Shown here: one piece after another, positions 21,586-30,600 of the stretch
Numbering within the stretch: the stretch's first letter is position 1
How the letters are laid out: each line of letters starts with the position of its first letter
The notes under the pieces: generated by a model
What the model was told of the DNA's origin: nothing
Databases searched by the model: none
What the model saw: only the letters and a program-made list of their open reading frames with translations
Assembly: GCA_016209525.1 (NCBI GenBank)
Contig: JACQWK010000626.1
Span: 1 to 34,428, forward strand
Direction: 5' to 3'
Source of the DNA: Verrucomicrobiota bacterium
Lineage (GTDB): Bacteria > Verrucomicrobiota > Verrucomicrobiia > Limisphaerales > SIBE01
DNA: 34,428 nucleotides
Position numbers and translations under genes: made by a program

Positions 21586-21951
21586 ATGCGCTTACTCAAA
21601 TTATCCATCATCACCGCGACCGTGCTCGTGCTGGCGGTCGCTCACGCGGCTGATAAGAAAGAGTCGAGGAAAGCCCACAAGGAAAAATCGGCTCAGTCCG
21701 CTACGCCTGCTGTCAACGAGGCCAAGGTTCATCTGGTGATCTCTGGAATGACCTGACCCGTCGGCTGTGTCACTAAAGTGCGGTCCGCACTCAAAATACC
21801 GGGAGTCAAGAATGCCGAAGTTGCACTGCCAGATAAGGCGGTCGTGACCGTGGAGAAGGGCAAGGTCACCACGAAGGACTTGATCGCGGCAGTGAAGAAA
21901 GCAGGCTACGGCGCTAAGGAAAGGAAGGAGAAGGTCGAAAAACTCCAGTAG
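21586..21951 (+). CDS. Periplasmic heavy-metal-associated (HMA) protein with in-frame TGA, candidate selenoprotein
   Basis: 121 codons if TGA (21754-21756, codon 57) is read through. A signal peptide (MRLLKLSIITATVLVLAVAHA) and a Lys-rich linker lead to VHLVISGMT-[TGA]-PVGCVTKV. Then follows a normal HMA tail: LKIPGVKNAEVALPDKAVVT, VTTKDLIAAVKKAGY and a charged end, closing at TAG. HMA (MerP/CopZ-like) domains bind soft metals through GMTCxxC; a CxxGC variant is common in periplasmic forms. The TGA replaces exactly the first metal-binding Cys (TGC or TGT), the remaining codons keep coding character, and a hairpin follows the TGA. Selenocysteine at that place is therefore likely. A nonsense mutation giving a 56-residue fragment is the alternative. 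No sel genes are in the window. A terminator follows. Confidence 0.72.
21757..21808 (+). promoter_or_regulatory. SECIS-like hairpin downstream of the TGA
   Basis: AGTGCG (21777-21782) and CGCACT (21786-21791) form a perfect 6-bp stem around GTC; with the last pair open the loop reads GGUCC. The E. coli fdhF SECIS apical loop is also GGUC-type. The loop starts about 25 nt after the TGA, within the range accepted for bacterial SECIS elements. A weaker lower stem can pair TGACCC at the TGA with GGAGTCA (21802-21808, one bulge), placing TGA at the hairpin base. Confidence 0.55.
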
Positions 21952-21991
21952 CGCCGGCGATCTGGATTTCCAGGTCTTCTGAAAAGACTTG

Positions 21992-22020
21992 CACCCCGCC
22001 CGAAATCGGCGGGGTGTTTT
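21992..22020 (+). terminator. Intrinsic terminator after the HMA gene
   Basis: CACCCCGCC (21992-22000) pairs perfectly with GGCGGGGTG (22008-22016) across a 7-nt loop, followed by TTTT. It may also act for rpsT, which ends from the other side at 22027. Confidence 0.75.
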
Positions 22021-22381: not shown

Positions 22382-22561
22382 CAGTCTTGCCCGGCCTTAG
22401 AGCGGTCGTTTCGTAACGCAGATTTTCAATCTGCTGTAGCGCAGAATTGCATTCTGCGGACGCCTCGCATTGCCAAGCACTCCCTCAGTCTCGCACGCCC
22501 AGCCAAGTGCAACTCGGCGATACGGCAGATTGAAAATCTGCGCTACGCTGTGCAAGACTGA
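22382..22561. repeat. Four-hairpin interspersed repeat, copy 2 of 5
   Basis: It contains GCAGATTTTCAATCTGC, GCAGAATTGCATTCTGC and GCAGATTGAAAATCTGC hairpins between CGTAACGC and GCGCTACG ends. Outer arms CAGTCTTGC (22382) and GCAAGACTG (22552) are inverted. It lies between rpsT and tmk. Confidence 0.85.
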
Positions 22562-23459: not shown

Positions 23460-24263
23460 TCACAAGCCCGATCCGGAAGTTTCGGCAAAGGGGTCCCCAA
23501 AATCGCTGCTGCGCGCGGGTCGGAAATGATCGGTCAGGAAGGTGACGAGCGATTCGATTTGCAGATCATCCAGCGGACCGCCCGCGATTTTCGCAAACGC
23601 AGGCATGAGCGTTCCCGGTTTGCCATATCGCATCCAATTGTCCCAATAGTTCCGGTCGGTGGGCTTTTTCAACGTTTTGAGATCCGGCACCATGGTCGCC
23701 CGATGTTCGGCCTCGTGGCAAATCCCGCAGACCGCCTTGAACAAGGGCTCGCCGCTCTTGCCGGCGGACGGATGCGCATGGCAATTCGCGCAGTCATTTC
23801 TAAACACGGCTTGTCGATCGGCCTGAGCCAGCATGCGATTCAGTTCGCGGCCATCCGGTTGAGGGATGTTCACGTTCACCGTGAGCAAGCTCAGCCCGGC
23901 GGACGTATCCACAGACACGATCTTGCTCAACAGCCCGAATTTGCCACGGAGATCGACTTTGACTTCGATTTGGCCATGGGCGCCAGGCGGCAACCGCCAC
24001 GGCAGCGGCGGGACCTTCGCGATGGTGCATCCGCACGACGTGCGAACTGCGTTTACGACGACTTCGGCCGGGGAGATGTTGGTGACGCCAAAGGTGAAGA
24101 GAGCGTTGGTTTCGCCTTTCTGGGCGTCATACCGTTTGGACATGGCGTCCCAAACCACGGACTGCCCGGTCGTGGTTTGTCCAAGGCCCGTGGCAGGAGT
24201 CAGAAGCAGCAACATCAGGCTCGCCAGCAACGGTCGGCTGAATTCGCAGGATAACGTCTTCAT
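23460..24263 (-). CDS. DUF1573 domain fused to c-type cytochrome
   Basis: A 267-residue exported protein. The signal peptide (LLASLMLLLLTPATGLGQ) ends near residue 29. Residues about 35-135 are a DUF1573 (Ig-like) domain with the family's TSCGCT (75-80) and KVDLRGKFG. Residues about 145-250 are a cytochrome c region with two haem-binding CxxCH motifs, CANCH (158-162) and CGICH (179-183), only 21 residues apart, and one likely axial Met in TLMPAF (M220). A role in periplasmic electron transfer is likely; the partner is unknown. The start at 24263 was chosen because the signal peptide begins there; an in-frame ATG at 24338 would add 25 residues unlike a leader. Confidence 0.85.
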   Translation of the reverse strand: MKTLSCEFSRPLLASLMLLLLTPATGLGQTTTGQSVVWDAMSKRYDAQKGETNALFTFGVTNISPAEVVVNAVRTSCGCTIAKVPPLPWRLPPGAHGQIEVKVDLRGKFGLLSKIVSVDTSAGLSLLTVNVNIPQPDGRELNRMLAQADRQAVFRNDCANCHAHPSAGKSGEPLFKAVCGICHEAEHRATMVPDLKTLKKPTDRNYWDNWMRYGKPGTLMPAFAKIAGGPLDDLQIESLVTFLTDHFRPARSSDFGDPFAETSGSGL

Positions 24264-24345
24264 CAAGCAAGCACGCACTCTATAAGGAAGCACACTTCGG
24301 TTGGCCAGCAAAATTTGGTTTGTCCTGCTGGACATCAAAGACCAA

Positions 24346-24664: not shown

Positions 24665-24709
24665 TTTGTCCGTCACCGAACAAAACCGGTGTCTGATCGA
24701 ACCTCTGTT

Positions 24710-24940
24710 ATGAAGAAACTGACTGTCTGTCTTATGTTGGCTGCCTTCGCAATGGTTTCCACCTTGCAGGCAGGAGAGAAGAACGCCAAGAGTCAAGCCG
24801 CGTGCAGCGACTCAGCCAAAGCGAGTTGCTCGGCCTCGGCCAAGACGGCGAGCTGCGGTGAGAAGACCGCCTGCTGCGCCAAGACTGCCGCCAAGGCGCG
24901 TCACGCCAAACGAGGAGCCACCCTTCTCGCACGGCTGTAA
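24710..24940 (+). CDS. Small secreted cysteine-rich protein
   Basis: A 76-residue protein. A signal peptide (MKKLTVCLMLAAFAMVSTLQ then AGEK) is followed by a short Lys/Ala/Ser mature part with six cysteines in about 30 residues: AACSDSAKASCSASAKTASC and TACCAK. The C-terminus is basic (KARHAKRGATLLARL). I do not recognise a named family; similar short Cys-rich exported proteins are frequent in PVC bacteria. Metal binding is a reasonable guess from cysteine density only. It is a stand-alone transcription unit: a candidate promoter upstream and a strong terminator 18 nt after the stop. The coding region is short, but the leader, terminator and composition support a real gene. Confidence 0.72.
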   Translation: MKKLTVCLMLAAFAMVSTLQAGEKNAKSQAACSDSAKASCSASAKTASCGEKTACCAKTAAKARHAKRGATLLARL

Positions 24941-25377: not shown

Positions 25378-27138
25378 TCAATACTTTTCCCACGGCGCAC
25401 GGTTAAAACCTGGCGCCGCTTCACGGCCAAAGCTTAGAGGCGGATTGCCATTCTCGAAAGCGCCAATGTCCGGCGCTGCGCCCTGGAAGTCATCGTTGAA
25501 CCCGGGCAACCGTGCGCCTTTGTCAATCGCTGGATTGGAGGCTTCCACCACAGGGTCTGTAATCGCGAAATTCTTTCCACTGCGCGAATACTCGATCCTT
25601 CCCCATTTGATGGCGGGTACGGTCGGCGCCAAGAACCACTCCAATCGATCGGACGGCACGAACATCGACCGGACAAAACCGCCGGCGAGATAACCGCTCG
25701 TCAGGTCGTTCCGCAGGTCGTTGGGAGGGCCTTGGGTGGATGCAGAAGGATAGACACGGCCACGGACGCGAAAGATATTGTTACGGGAAACCGCGTTGCC
25801 GAGTCCGTGATCGCTGAAGACATTGAGCGCGCCGTTCGGCTGAAGCGTGGTGTTGTGGAAAATGTAGCGCCGTCCCTGATCGCCGGGGACCTGCTCGCCA
25901 TTCAAGGCCAGAAATCTTCTGGGGCCGGCGGTTTTGATGATCATCCCGCCGCTGGCGTCCTGGTGGGAAACGCGACTTGTCCCGAAAACATTTCGGAAGA
26001 TATAGAGCGGCCCCTTGGACGTGGAAGCCGTGGCCACGAAGACAAAGGTCTTGTCCAGGTAATTGCCCCAAATGCGCACGTTCATGTTCGCGCCTTCGCT
26101 TTCGATCGCGTCGTCCCAACAATTGGCGACGATGTTGCCGTAAATGTCGGAATCGCGGTTGGGGCTTCCCTCGAAGCTGAAGTTGCTCCCGCCGCCGATC
26201 CCATCGTTGTAGCCGTGGTCCTCGGTCGAGCGAATCGTGTTGTATCGAATGATGTTTCCCCCCGACGAGTTCACCAACGAAATCGCCTGCGGGCCGTCCG
26301 GGTGGCCCGATTCCCAATCGTTCGAGCCGCTGCGCGGGTGTTCAATCAGATTGCGCTGAATGACGAGTCCGCCGCTGCCCGTCTCGCCATAGACCGCGCT
26401 GTCGGAGCCGTGAAAAACGCCCCAGACGCGCGCGCCGCCAACGCGACCCCATTGCGCGATGTGGCAATCTTCGATGACGACGTTCTGGACGCCCTTGCGA
26501 ATGAGCACCGCGTGCTGCCCGGCGTTCTTCAACTCCAGCCCGCGAATGATCACGTAGTTTGCCGCCACCTCGATGCAGTTGTCGTGCAGATTGAAGACAT
26601 TGATTACGGTCTTGGAACCCGGCGCCGGCGTGACCAGGTGCCATGCCTCGGGCGTCCCGGACTCGACGATCCGCAACGGTTTGTCCAACTCGCCCGTCGG
26701 CAGATGCGTCGTCTTGGCAATCGGAAACCGCTCGCTGCGGGTCGTGGCGGTGAACGAAGCCTTCTTGCCGGAGGGGGCCGTCAACTCGATTTCATGCCTT
26801 GTGCCGGGCCGCAGTTGGACCAGGCTTCCGCGAAATTCGACGTCTCGTTCATCATACCAAAGTGGGTACCCCACGCGCCACGCGCCCTCGCCCTCCTGGC
26901 GGAAACGGACCTGCGCTTCGACCTTGCCGCTCTCGCTTGGTCGAAGCCCATCGTCACCTGGCTTCCAATAGAGGCCAATACATTCAAAAGTTGGAGCGAC
27001 GGTTTGCGCCTGCGCCGAACCAGGCCGGAGAGCGCTGACCGATGCCAAAAGGCAGCAGATGCAAACTCCGAGGCGGTTGATTTTTCTAGGTGGACACGAG
27101 TCGTCGATCCGCATTGAAATTATCAGAACTGCTTTCAT
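25378..27138 (-). CDS. Secreted right-handed parallel beta-helix protein (pectate-lyase-like fold)
   Basis: A 586-residue exported protein with a leader ending [10 protein letters not shown]. Residues about 45-150 look like an N-terminal beta-sandwich. From about 180 the chain has repeated short strands typical of pectin-lyase-like parallel beta helices: [83 protein letters not shown] and FRNVFG. It ends with [20 protein letters not shown]-type sequence that is common at the end of such secreted proteins. The fold is used by polysaccharide lyases and hydrolases and by adhesins; no catalytic set can be assigned. ATG 27138 is used; ATG 27114 is a possible shorter start. Its first 53 bases overlap the tail of a truncated S41-like frame. 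Confidence 0.82.
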
Positions 27139-27643
27139 TCGTCATCGAGTTAGAACATTGCAGGTTACCAGCACGGCCGATCCCAAACGGGGGAACGAAA
27201 ATGGGCATGAGAAAACGGGCCTGGCCTGTCCTCTTGTACTCTGTCCCTGGATCCTGAGCAATCGTGGTCTGACCGGAAAGTTCTGTCGCCCCGGCGGGGC
27301 TGAAACGCGGGGCGGTCGGGTTTTCCCACGGCTCACGCCGTGGGCTACATTCTGGTCGCCCCTCCGGGGCTGGTTCTCGTTGAGTTGGCGCAGGCCGGGC
27401 CGGTCGTTCGTGCAACCTTGCGATGTCTTCCGCAAATTTCTTGGGCGGAAGGAGTCTCGAGAAGTCTTTCTGACGGGCCGGCAATTCCTTCCAGATCACA
27501 TCAAGGTCCGCTCGCCATTGTGCCTCGCGCGAAGCGTCGGAAGCCGTGCGCGAGGACGCCTCTTCCACTGCGCGCAGAGGGGCCCGCGAGACGAGAGTCA
27601 CGGCCGTGATGACAGAGAACCAGACGACGTATCGAGTCTGCAT
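27086..27643 (-). pseudogene. Truncated S41-peptidase-like N-terminal fragment running into a repeat
   Basis: The frame begins with a signal peptide (MQTRYVVWFSVITAVTLVSR). It continues with WRADLDVIWKELPARQKDFS and KKFAEDIARLHE, which resembles the N-terminal cap of S41 (C-terminal-processing-type) peptidases, where 'W..DLd.l...LP..Hk' is typical. From about residue 70 the sequence becomes GC-rich repeat translation (Pro/Arg-rich) and then non-coding-looking sequence, and no protease domain follows anywhere nearby. I read this as a gene cut off by a repeat insertion or deletion. Family assignment rests on about 50 residues and is tentative. It lies 2 bp downstream of the GH123-DUF4832 gene. 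Confidence 0.5.
27284..27385. repeat. GC-rich three-hairpin repeat
   Basis: CGCCCCGGCGGGGCTGAAAC, then CCCACGGC (27325-27332)/GCCGTGGG (27337-27344) with loop TCAC, then GCCCCTCCGGGGC. It forms the break point of the S41-like fragment. Confidence 0.7.
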
Positions 27644-27645
27644 AT

Positions 27646-30600
27646 TTACGGCTTAGTCAGTTCCAAATGACTCACCGCATACCAGCCGTCGGCATCGCGA
27701 CCGGCGATGGCCAAGCGAACGGCGGGAGCTTGTGTGGTCGGGTCCACGAGGCCGAGGGCCAGTTCGTAATCGCCAGGCTGAGTTCCGGCCGGGATTCGGA
27801 ACGTCGAATCGGTTTTTCGCTCGCCGGGCAGCCAGCCGAGAATGGTCGTATCCGTAACGAACAGCAGCGGCTTGGCGGTTGGGTCGCCGCGTTTCGTCAG
27901 GCGGATGGCCACGCGATAGTCGCGATGGGGAGGCGCGACGCCGAGGTTTTCCCATGTGACAGCCAGCGCAAGTTGATCGCCACTGCGGACGCTGGCGGCG
28001 TGCTCAAGGTCACGCACGACGAGACGGTAACCCAATCGCCGCAGGAACTTTTCGATGTCCGAGCGCGTGCCTTCCGGAACGGGAGCCGACTTGTTGTTCA
28101 CGTAACTTGCGTGACAGCGCAACGCGTAATCGAAGATGTGGGAGATATCCCAATTCTCTTGCTTCCACTTGCGCATGTCCCAGCAGCTTTCGAACGCGAC
28201 AGGCGCGATTCTCCAGGCTTCCTGCGCGCCGGTCTTCGCCAACTGCTGCATGTAAAAGTGGTCCATGTGATTCCAGGTTTTGGAGAAGCCGCCCATGTCG
28301 CCGAGGCAATCGGCCCGCCAGCCAAGCCCGTCTTTGATCGTCCGCTTCATGCCCTGTTCACTGCCGATGAGAATCACTTTGGCCGTCCTGGGAAAGGCGC
28401 GCCGCCATTCATCGATGATCGCATCAATGAGCGACGGCGACGGCAGCGGCACGGGCTTTCCGGTCTCCGCCGCAGTCGTGCCGCTCATGTGCCATTCGCC
28501 CCAGAGGCCGACCGAGCCGATGTCGAGCAAATCCATTTCGGGATGTCCGTCGTAACGGTTGCCCAATTCCCGGATCAGCCGAAAATGCTTTTCCTGAAAC
28601 AGCGGATCGGCAAAGTCGGGCACCCAATGGTTGCGGCCGCCGTATTTGAATTCGACGCCTTTGCAGCCTTGCTCCTTGAGCCACGCCGGCACGTCCATGT
28701 ACTGGCCGGAGCCGGTGCACATAATTCGGAAGGCGAGCTTTTGTCCGGCGCGACGCGCGTGGGCGAGCAATTCGTCGAACTTGGCGAAATCGATGGCGCC
28801 ATCGCGCGGCTCGATTTCGCGCCAGTAAAATCGGAAATAGGCGCTCGCACTCGGCAGACCTTGAAGGTTCTTGTCGTCGTCCGCGAAGTGATGGAACGTC
28901 TGCCAGCCCATGCCAGGGTTCGCGAACAAGTCGTCGATTTCACGGGGTTCAACTCGGATTTTCCTTGCCTCGGGCCGGACAGCCGACGCGGACACAATCA
29001 ACGCAGCCAGGCTGGCTCGCGCTTGCTGGCACGCCGCCGGATTCTTGTCCCAGGCAAAGAACGATTCGGCCACCGGACGCGCGATCTGGTCCGCTTCGGC
29101 GGTTCGGCCCAAGCGATCGAGCAAGGCCAGATACTCGTAATCTTCGATGGAATCGCGGAGCGCTTTCAGCCGAATCGTGGGAACGATTCCGTCGTAGCCG
29201 ACCGCGCGCGCCGGATAGACGAGCGAGCCCTCGCCGTTGAAGACAACTCCTTTCTTGCCCTGCTGTGGAGCGCCCCGTCCGGTGTAGAATGGCGCTTCCA
29301 ACCACGGGTCATCGACTTGCCGCCAATACGACATCCCGCCCCAGTAAAGCAGACCCTGCATGCGGTTGCGCCAGGCCATCCACGCCGGCACCCGGTAGTT
29401 GAGCAGCGGGTAATCGATGTGCCACCACGGCGTCGGCGGGCCCTGGCACAAAGCGGTGTAGGTCCAGACCATTTCGCCAAGCGCCTGCCGCGCCGCGGCG
29501 CTGTCCGGCCGGTGCAGGGAGAAAAGCGGACACCAGATATCGACGGCGCCGTAGAGATCGCCCCAGGCGCTGTCGGCGCCGCCTTTGCCGGGCTCAGTCC
29601 AAGTCTGTTCGACAACTAACACTTTTACCGCCGACTTCGCTTCGCGGACGGCGCGGCCCCATTTCTGAACGTAGCGGTAATCTTCCAACGTGTTCGGCTC
29701 GTCTTTGAGGTAGGTATAGAACATCAGATGGGTTCGCTGCAAAGACTGAGCCGCGTGATCGAAGGCCGCGAGCCACGCGTGCAACTTGGTTCGCTCAAGC
29801 TCCGGGTCTTTCACCGCGCTGGACGGATGAGGAATCTGGAATGCGTTCACGTGGTAGCGATCAAGATACGCCCGCAGAGCCTCGATCTGCGTCGGCGGGA
29901 TTTGAAATGAGCCGTCCGCCTGAGCCATGGGCCGCAGCGTCTCCGGTGGTGGCGTCGCATTGACGCGATGTTCAGTGAGCAGTTGGGCGCACTGAACTTC
30001 CACAGATGACCAATCCTTCGGCGCGGACTCTTTTCCGGCTTCCGTCCGTTGCCGATAGTAGCTCCGGAGTTGCTGCGCCGGAGAGCCGAACGAAGTCACC
30101 AGGGTGGAGACTCGCGGCAGAGTGAAATCCCAGACGGTCAGTGAAACTGGAATGTCCACAGCGCGCTCGGTTTCGGCGGTCACGCGAAAGCTGCCGCGAT
30201 ACTCGCCCGCGTTGGCTTCGGCTGGAACGCGTATGTCCACCCAGAATCCGTGCGTCTCGTTGGCGGGCAAATCAAAGGGAATAGCCGTCAATCGTGGCCC
30301 ATCGAGCTTCCGACCGCTCATCGGGTGTTCAAACGGAATCAACGGATCCGGGTACCAGTCCGGCTTGAACTCCGTGTTTCGGGAGGTGCCCGTGTCCAGG
30401 CGAAGTTGGTGTTGCCGGAACAGCCTGGCGTCGCCGGCGCGCAGCACCGCGCCGCCGGGACCGCGCAGGTCACCCGCCTCGACGCGCACGCTTTTGACCG
30501 AAGCATCGGACCTCAACAAGATTTGAAAGCTTTCCCATTCGTTGCGGGCCGCCGAAAGGTTTGCTTCTCGGCTAAGGCCCGGAGCGTCGCCGCGAAGCAC

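Follow-up and report, generated by a model that had tools for sequence, protein, structure and literature searches.

A gene at positions 21,586 to 21,951 of the 34,428-nucleotide stretch of verrucomicrobial DNA analysed here (the window) is almost certainly a functional selenoprotein gene, in which a stop codon, TGA, is read as selenocysteine (Sec) at the first ligand position of a small, probably exported HMA protein. We reach this view because at least 16 other genomes keep the TGA, a hairpin beyond it and, in all but one case, the Sec machinery. The features of the gene are as follows.

21586–21951, plus strand: coding sequence of the predicted exported HMA selenoprotein; 121 amino acids, Sec as residue 57, stop codon TAG; six full-length orthologues with a single in-frame TGA.
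21586–21648, plus strand: probable signal peptide MRLLKLSIITATVLVLAVAHA, cut after AHA, read by eye from the translation.
21724–21921, plus strand: HMA domain, residues 47–112, with a predicted beta-alpha-beta-beta-alpha-beta fold (PF00403, AlphaFold2).
21754–21756, plus strand: UGA codon predicted to be read as Sec (residue 57), first ligand position of the UxxxC site.
21766–21768, plus strand: codon TGT for the second site residue, Cys61, invariant in the family.
21777–21791, plus strand: predicted bacterial SECIS hairpin AGUGCG-GUC-CGCACU, with 6 bp and a GUC loop, which has a covarying closing pair and starts 26 nt past the UGA.
21991–22017, plus strand: terminator-like hairpin 3' of the gene, 10 pairs followed by a short T run (consensus scan only).

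The frame starts with an ATG at 21586 and its translation is MRLLKLSIITATVLVLAVAHAADKKESRKAHKEKSAQSATPAVNEAKVHLVISGMT-U-PVGCVTKVRSALKIPGVKNAEVALPDKAVVTVEKGKVTTKDLIAAVKKAGYGAKERKEKVEKLQ. The TGA is the sole in-frame TGA, in the site GMT-U-PVG-C; codons 58–121 are open and are closed by a TAG at 21949–21951. Mechanical reading of the frame yields just a 90-amino-acid ORF stopping at the TGA. The earlier note on this DNA had described the gene accurately: the TGA lies exactly where it had placed it, at the first Cys of the HMA site (codon 57, in GMT-[TGA]-P-V-G-C), and the second Cys, codon 61, is intact. The fragment of 56 residues and the 64 codons past the TGA were both correctly counted, the TAG does precede a terminator-like hairpin, and HMA sequence does continue beyond the TGA, which is spanned by the PF00403 match (residues 52–108). 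The hairpin at 21991–22017 may also serve the convergent rpsT gene. A reassigned code was considered and ruled out, because TGA is the ordinary stop of many other genes in the window and of selA and selB.

The same note had interpreted the gene as encoding a selenoprotein, and had proposed a search for selA, selB, selC and selD, an inspection of codon 57 in homologues and a SECIS prediction. Its reading is supported on all three counts: the four genes were found in the host genome, codon 57 is TGA rather than a Cys codon in at least 16 other genomes, and the hairpin at 21777–21791 fits the published model and is conserved with compensatory change.

The host genome is a 10.1-Mb MAG of 764 contigs (93% complete, 4.8% estimated contamination), of which the window forms contig C516. 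Profile searches of this genome identified selB on contig C511 (317.9 bits, cut-off 242), with selA adjoining it (477 bits), and selD (366 bits, cut-off 125). A tRNA-Sec (selC) with a TCA/UCA anticodon was called by both Rfam and ARAGORN. The selD gene (contig C197, L179) has a TGA at its own Sec/catalytic position (SSCAGUASK), with a strong hairpin with a GUU loop about 33 nt downstream, so that at least one classical selenoprotein gene is present in the host as an internal control. The selA/selB, selC and selD genes are carried by contigs other than that of the window and, given the estimated contamination, might have been binned wrongly; however, selA and a tRNA-Sec are also present in the two same-genus genomes (G001 and G002), which argues against a binning error.

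The same gene with a TGA at the same codon was present in at least 16 other Verrucomicrobiota genomes, giving, with the window, 17 genomes and 18 sites in several families. In a search of 196 genomes of relatives, the best full-length matches (G007, G005, G003, G046, G116 and G037) each had one TGA at the site, as did G194, bringing the carriers from this search to seven. The TGA is identical in every close full-length homologue found, and its position is thus beyond chance. A GTDB scan yielded four further carriers: L072, L073, L105 (Akkermansiaceae) and L120 (Rubritalea). The gene of the Rubritalea MAG (L120:308-784) contains two tandem HMA domains with a TGA in each, followed in both cases by the same hairpin with the loop GGC, and its predicted product is a natural two-Sec form. 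A DNA pattern built from the TGA, the codon of the second Cys and the hairpin, with no protein information, retrieved five more carriers (G586, G617, G619, G862 and G871). This pattern matched 13 genomes in the order and class samples, always in HMA genes, whereas the reversed control pattern had one match in the order sample and none seen in the class sample. The relatives search gave no match to the gene in the two same-genus genomes, and no relative of the gene was found in the viral contigs searched. A search of the phylum with the alignment returned mostly TGA-free HMA domains, many of them within long frames, transport ATPase genes among them.

The Sec form and selA co-occur, an association uncorrected for shared ancestry: selA was detected in 16 of the 17 carrier genomes (15/16 besides the host), versus 70 of the 196 relatives overall, although it was sought in nine of the carriers only after these had been found to be carriers (present in 9/9). 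Neither selA nor tRNA-Sec was found in G007, which is 60% complete, and no tRNA-Sec was detected at an E value of 1e-9 in carriers G116 and G194. Genomes of the same order with the Cys form were not among the selA-positive ones (G018, G044, G057, G087, G094, G103, G117 and G179), with the exception of G139. Rfam tRNA-Sec matches in G094 and G117 were identified as tRNA-Ser by ARAGORN and left out of the count.

Every Sec gene contains the hairpin AGUGC-R-GUC-Y-GCACU, or a near variant, in a fixed register, starting 23 nt past the U of the UGA. The three-nucleotide loop has G and U as its first two bases, except in Rubritalea, where it is GGC. The published model of bacterial SECIS elements has a stem of 4–16 bp, a loop of 3–9 nt, a UGA-to-loop distance of 16–37 nt, a G within the first two nucleotides of the loop, in most cases with G or U after it and a pair around it, and a minimum free energy of −7.5 kcal/mol or lower (PMC13188914). 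The hairpin of the window is within the limits of this model for stem, loop, loop G and spacing (6 bp, GUC, 26 nt), but its core alone, at −6.3 kcal/mol, is weaker than the model energy; the values for the other family members are −6.0 to −11.0 kcal/mol. A 44-nt stretch reaches −8.0 kcal/mol, but in another fold, and a 60-nt stretch reaches −14.8 kcal/mol with the core included, an energy that is not unusual with respect to shuffled sequences (z = −0.55). All six pairs form in 12 of 12 Sec genes, as against two or three of six in nine Cys (CxxxC) homologues, none of which has the full hairpin (0/9). The closing pair is A-U in six of the 12 sequences, G-C in five and G-U in one, and is never unpaired. 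The observed pairing was reached in 6 of 500 shuffles, and slid versions attained at most 64%; changes on both sides were seen in just one of the six stem pairs. Members found with the DNA pattern were left out as hairpin evidence, because they had been selected on the hairpin. In the eight genes compared, Val65 is always encoded by GTG and Ala68 always by GCA, whereas Val and Ala at other positions of the gene are encoded by several synonymous codons.

Substitution rates were estimated by the NG86 method for the parts before and after the TGA, with the near-identical G007/G005 pair set apart. Among the closer members (window, G007, G005 and G003), dN after the TGA was 0.11–0.25 and dS was 1.0–1.7, close to saturation, such that the ratios are rough. 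In comparisons of the same groups, dN before the TGA was 0.29–0.47. For the window versus G007 and G003, dN was 0.29 and 0.47, respectively, before the TGA, and 0.22 and 0.25 after it. Purifying selection acts on the codons downstream of the TGA; these values are not those of a dead reading frame.

These data bear on three other accounts of the TGA. Mutation of a Cys codon in a pseudogene, the rest of which is still undecayed, would take a single base change from TGT or TGC, and the gene is unmatched in both same-genus genomes, but this account is highly improbable and was rejected: it is refuted in practice by the identical position of the TGA in 17 genomes of several families, purifying selection past the TGA and a covarying hairpin that is missing from the Cys homologues, together with the presence of selA in 16 of the 17 carriers. 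A sequencing or assembly error at one base might be suspected in a MAG in 764 contigs, but the same TGA occurs in independently named MAGs of other projects (SIBE01000134, VHDE01000052, JAHDID010000001, DPWT01000135, JARFPV010000490 and CALAJT010000047), and we rejected this possibility as very unlikely. Sec decoding always competes with termination, and the UGA might accordingly act as a selenium-dependent regulatory switch, with a short exported fragment that is also functional and readthrough that merely reports selenium; one published study gives an in vivo recoding efficiency of 30–40% (PMC4513850). However, evolution is faster upstream of the TGA, in the signal peptide and a charged linker, than downstream, indicating that it is the HMA part that selection maintains, and such a switch is very improbable.

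The hydrophobic N-terminus of the protein suggests export across the inner membrane, and the N-termini of the orthologues, also read by eye, are similarly hydrophobic or lipobox-like (G194, G617 and L072). The match to the Pfam HMA family PF00403 had an E value of 3.3e-9 and a score of 37.4 bits (gathering cut-off 24.8). The AlphaFold2 model has an HMA fold, with a pLDDT of about 86–94 over residues 51–110, and structure comparison placed it closest to MerP 1osd and to copper-ATPase domains. CxxC is the usual metal site of HMA domains, but is not required for membership of the fold family; here, the site is UxxxC, with Sec in place of the first Cys and a spacing one residue longer, which is also found in the Cys relatives. 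The gene stands alone, because its neighbours differ between carriers. In the window, these neighbours encode a HisH-like glutamine amidotransferase, ribosomal protein S20 and thymidylate kinase. No conserved neighbourhood was found in the carriers looked at, except in a UBA8040/Akkermansiaceae pair sharing HI0933-like and FtsH genes, and no obvious metal genes were found among the neighbours in these carriers.

The gene, its TGA and the conservation of this codon, the SECIS element, the Sec machinery and the HMA fold are all apparent at the sequence level, and together outline a probable mechanism. SelB with Sec-tRNA(Sec) would bind the mRNA hairpin at 21777–21791 and place Sec at the UGA at 21754; translation would then continue to the TAG at 21949, yielding a 121-residue precursor for export. 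The mature protein would be a small stand-alone HMA domain with Sec57 and Cys61 as its site residues (UxxxC, not CxxC), and in the periplasm this selenolate/thiolate pair would bind a soft metal, for instance Hg(II) or Cu(I). We infer that cells make the readthrough product, that this product resides in the periplasm and that it binds metal, as well as the identity of the metal. Selenolates prefer soft metals, and the protein shares its fold and GMT site with metal carriers; for these reasons, soft-metal binding is the most likely role, and we consider it reasonably probable on the basis of fold and site.

The main alternative accepts a real selenoprotein but takes UxxxC as a thiol/selenol redox pair forming a selenenylsulfide, in a small periplasmic oxidoreductase or a resolving partner. 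Redox motifs, such as UxxC or CxxU, are found in most predicted prokaryotic selenoproteins (PMC13188914), the spacing here exceeds that of the HMA CxxC by one residue, and the adjoining genes include no obvious metal genes. Conversely, an HMA fold with a GMT motif is what metal carriers have, and the Cys homologues retain both residues in an HMA context; we therefore regard a redox role as unlikely, though deserving of serious consideration.

Two further HMA genes of the host, closely alike, have an in-frame TGA.

C198 (L020:907-1326), minus strand: HMA gene with TGA, site GMTUAGC.
End of C321 (L017:13429-13796), minus strand: HMA gene with TGA, site GITUAGC.

Both have a Cys-rich C-terminal tail and the hairpin UUGAGC-GGUC-GCUCAA. 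They look like members of a mercury system, because C198 also bears MerA (549 bits against a cut-off of 454), along with a gene similar to MerT/MerP (MerT/HMA) fusions; the presence of mercuric reductase on the contig of a paralogue suggests a link to mercury. Their scores against the NF041115 profile were 60–61 bits (cut-off 95), nearer than that of the window protein.

Several other features of the window were recorded. An Acido-Lenti-1 RNA (RF01687) lies at 27325–27371 (47.1 bits, cut-off 37), inside or near overlapping ORFs at about 27086–27670. A short Cys-rich ORF at 24689–24940, AACSDSAKASCSASAKTASCGEKTACCAKTAAK, has the look of an exported protein and may encode another metal binder. 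The intergenic region at 22415–22550 contains two inverted stretches, GCAGATTTTCAATCTGC and GCAGATTGAAAATCTGC. At 23460–24338, a DUF1573 domain is fused to a cytochrome c domain and has a CGC motif; elsewhere, DUF1573 proteins exist as UGC selenoproteins (PMC13188914).

Most bacterial selenoproteins known so far are regarded as redox enzymes. With Sec in place of a metal Cys in a small and well-understood fold, the question of whether Sec can be chosen as a metal ligand would become directly testable on a domain of about 75 residues, for which the natural Cys versions provide controls. Genes of this type are cut short by mechanical ORF reading, and the SECIS-based DNA pattern retrieves them with very few false matches in the genomes tested.

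The Cys homologues are exported CxxxC HMA proteins from Verrucomicrobiota and Bacteroidota (GMSCPHGC, GMVCEEGC and GMTCAVGC), with the same domain and the same spacing, and the UGA of the window gene aligns with their TGC or TGT codon. Unlike the Sec genes, they have no in-frame TGA and no SECIS hairpin, and the CxxxC carriers of the order mostly lack selA. The top PDB match was MerP of Ralstonia metallidurans (1osd; E value 5.9e-6, TM-score 0.89 by target length, 32% identity), which differs from the window protein in its CxxC site with two Cys. This MerP is part of the mer mercury-resistance operon. Against the MerP profile TIGR02052, the window protein scored 35 bits (cut-off 92.55), and the mer operon context is absent. 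NF041115 (UxxU_metal_bind) likewise comprises small HMA-like proteins with Sec in the metal site, and matched with an E value of 6e-11, but the score was 42.3 bits against a curated cut-off of 95, and the two Sec residues of UxxU contrast with the one Sec and one Cys of UxxxC. NF045683 (MerT_CopZ_Se, a MerT/CopZ fusion-like heavy metal transport selenoprotein) also has an HMA/CopZ part in a selenoprotein, but the window protein lacks the MerT-like membrane part (25.6 bits versus 375). The GOS survey reported two MerP selenoprotein sequences (PMC2398784), which are similarly MerP-type HMA proteins predicted to contain Sec; no motif is given in that survey, and the window gene lies outside a mer operon. 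The stand-alone UxxxC form of HMA is absent from a catalogue of 2026 that covers 119 families and subfamilies of prokaryotic selenoproteins, the nearest entries in which are NF041115 (UxxU), MerT and an E1-E2 ATPase with UxxC (PMC13188914). The comparison covered open-licence papers and NCBIfam profiles, and an unnamed database entry for the UxxxC form may exist, for example among annotated RefSeq selenoproteins. According to the rule of the catalogue, proteins that share a domain but differ in their Sec motif belong to separate subfamilies (PMC13188914), and the exported UxxxC form would therefore be a new subfamily of a known selenoprotein type. HMA-type selenoproteins are already known, and the stand-alone exported UxxxC form is best filed as such a subfamily. 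The chances are about even that these proteins constitute a Verrucomicrobiota-centred group of exported stand-alone UxxxC HMA selenoproteins, including tandem two-Sec forms, in which Sec serves as a soft-metal ligand outside mercury-resistance operons.
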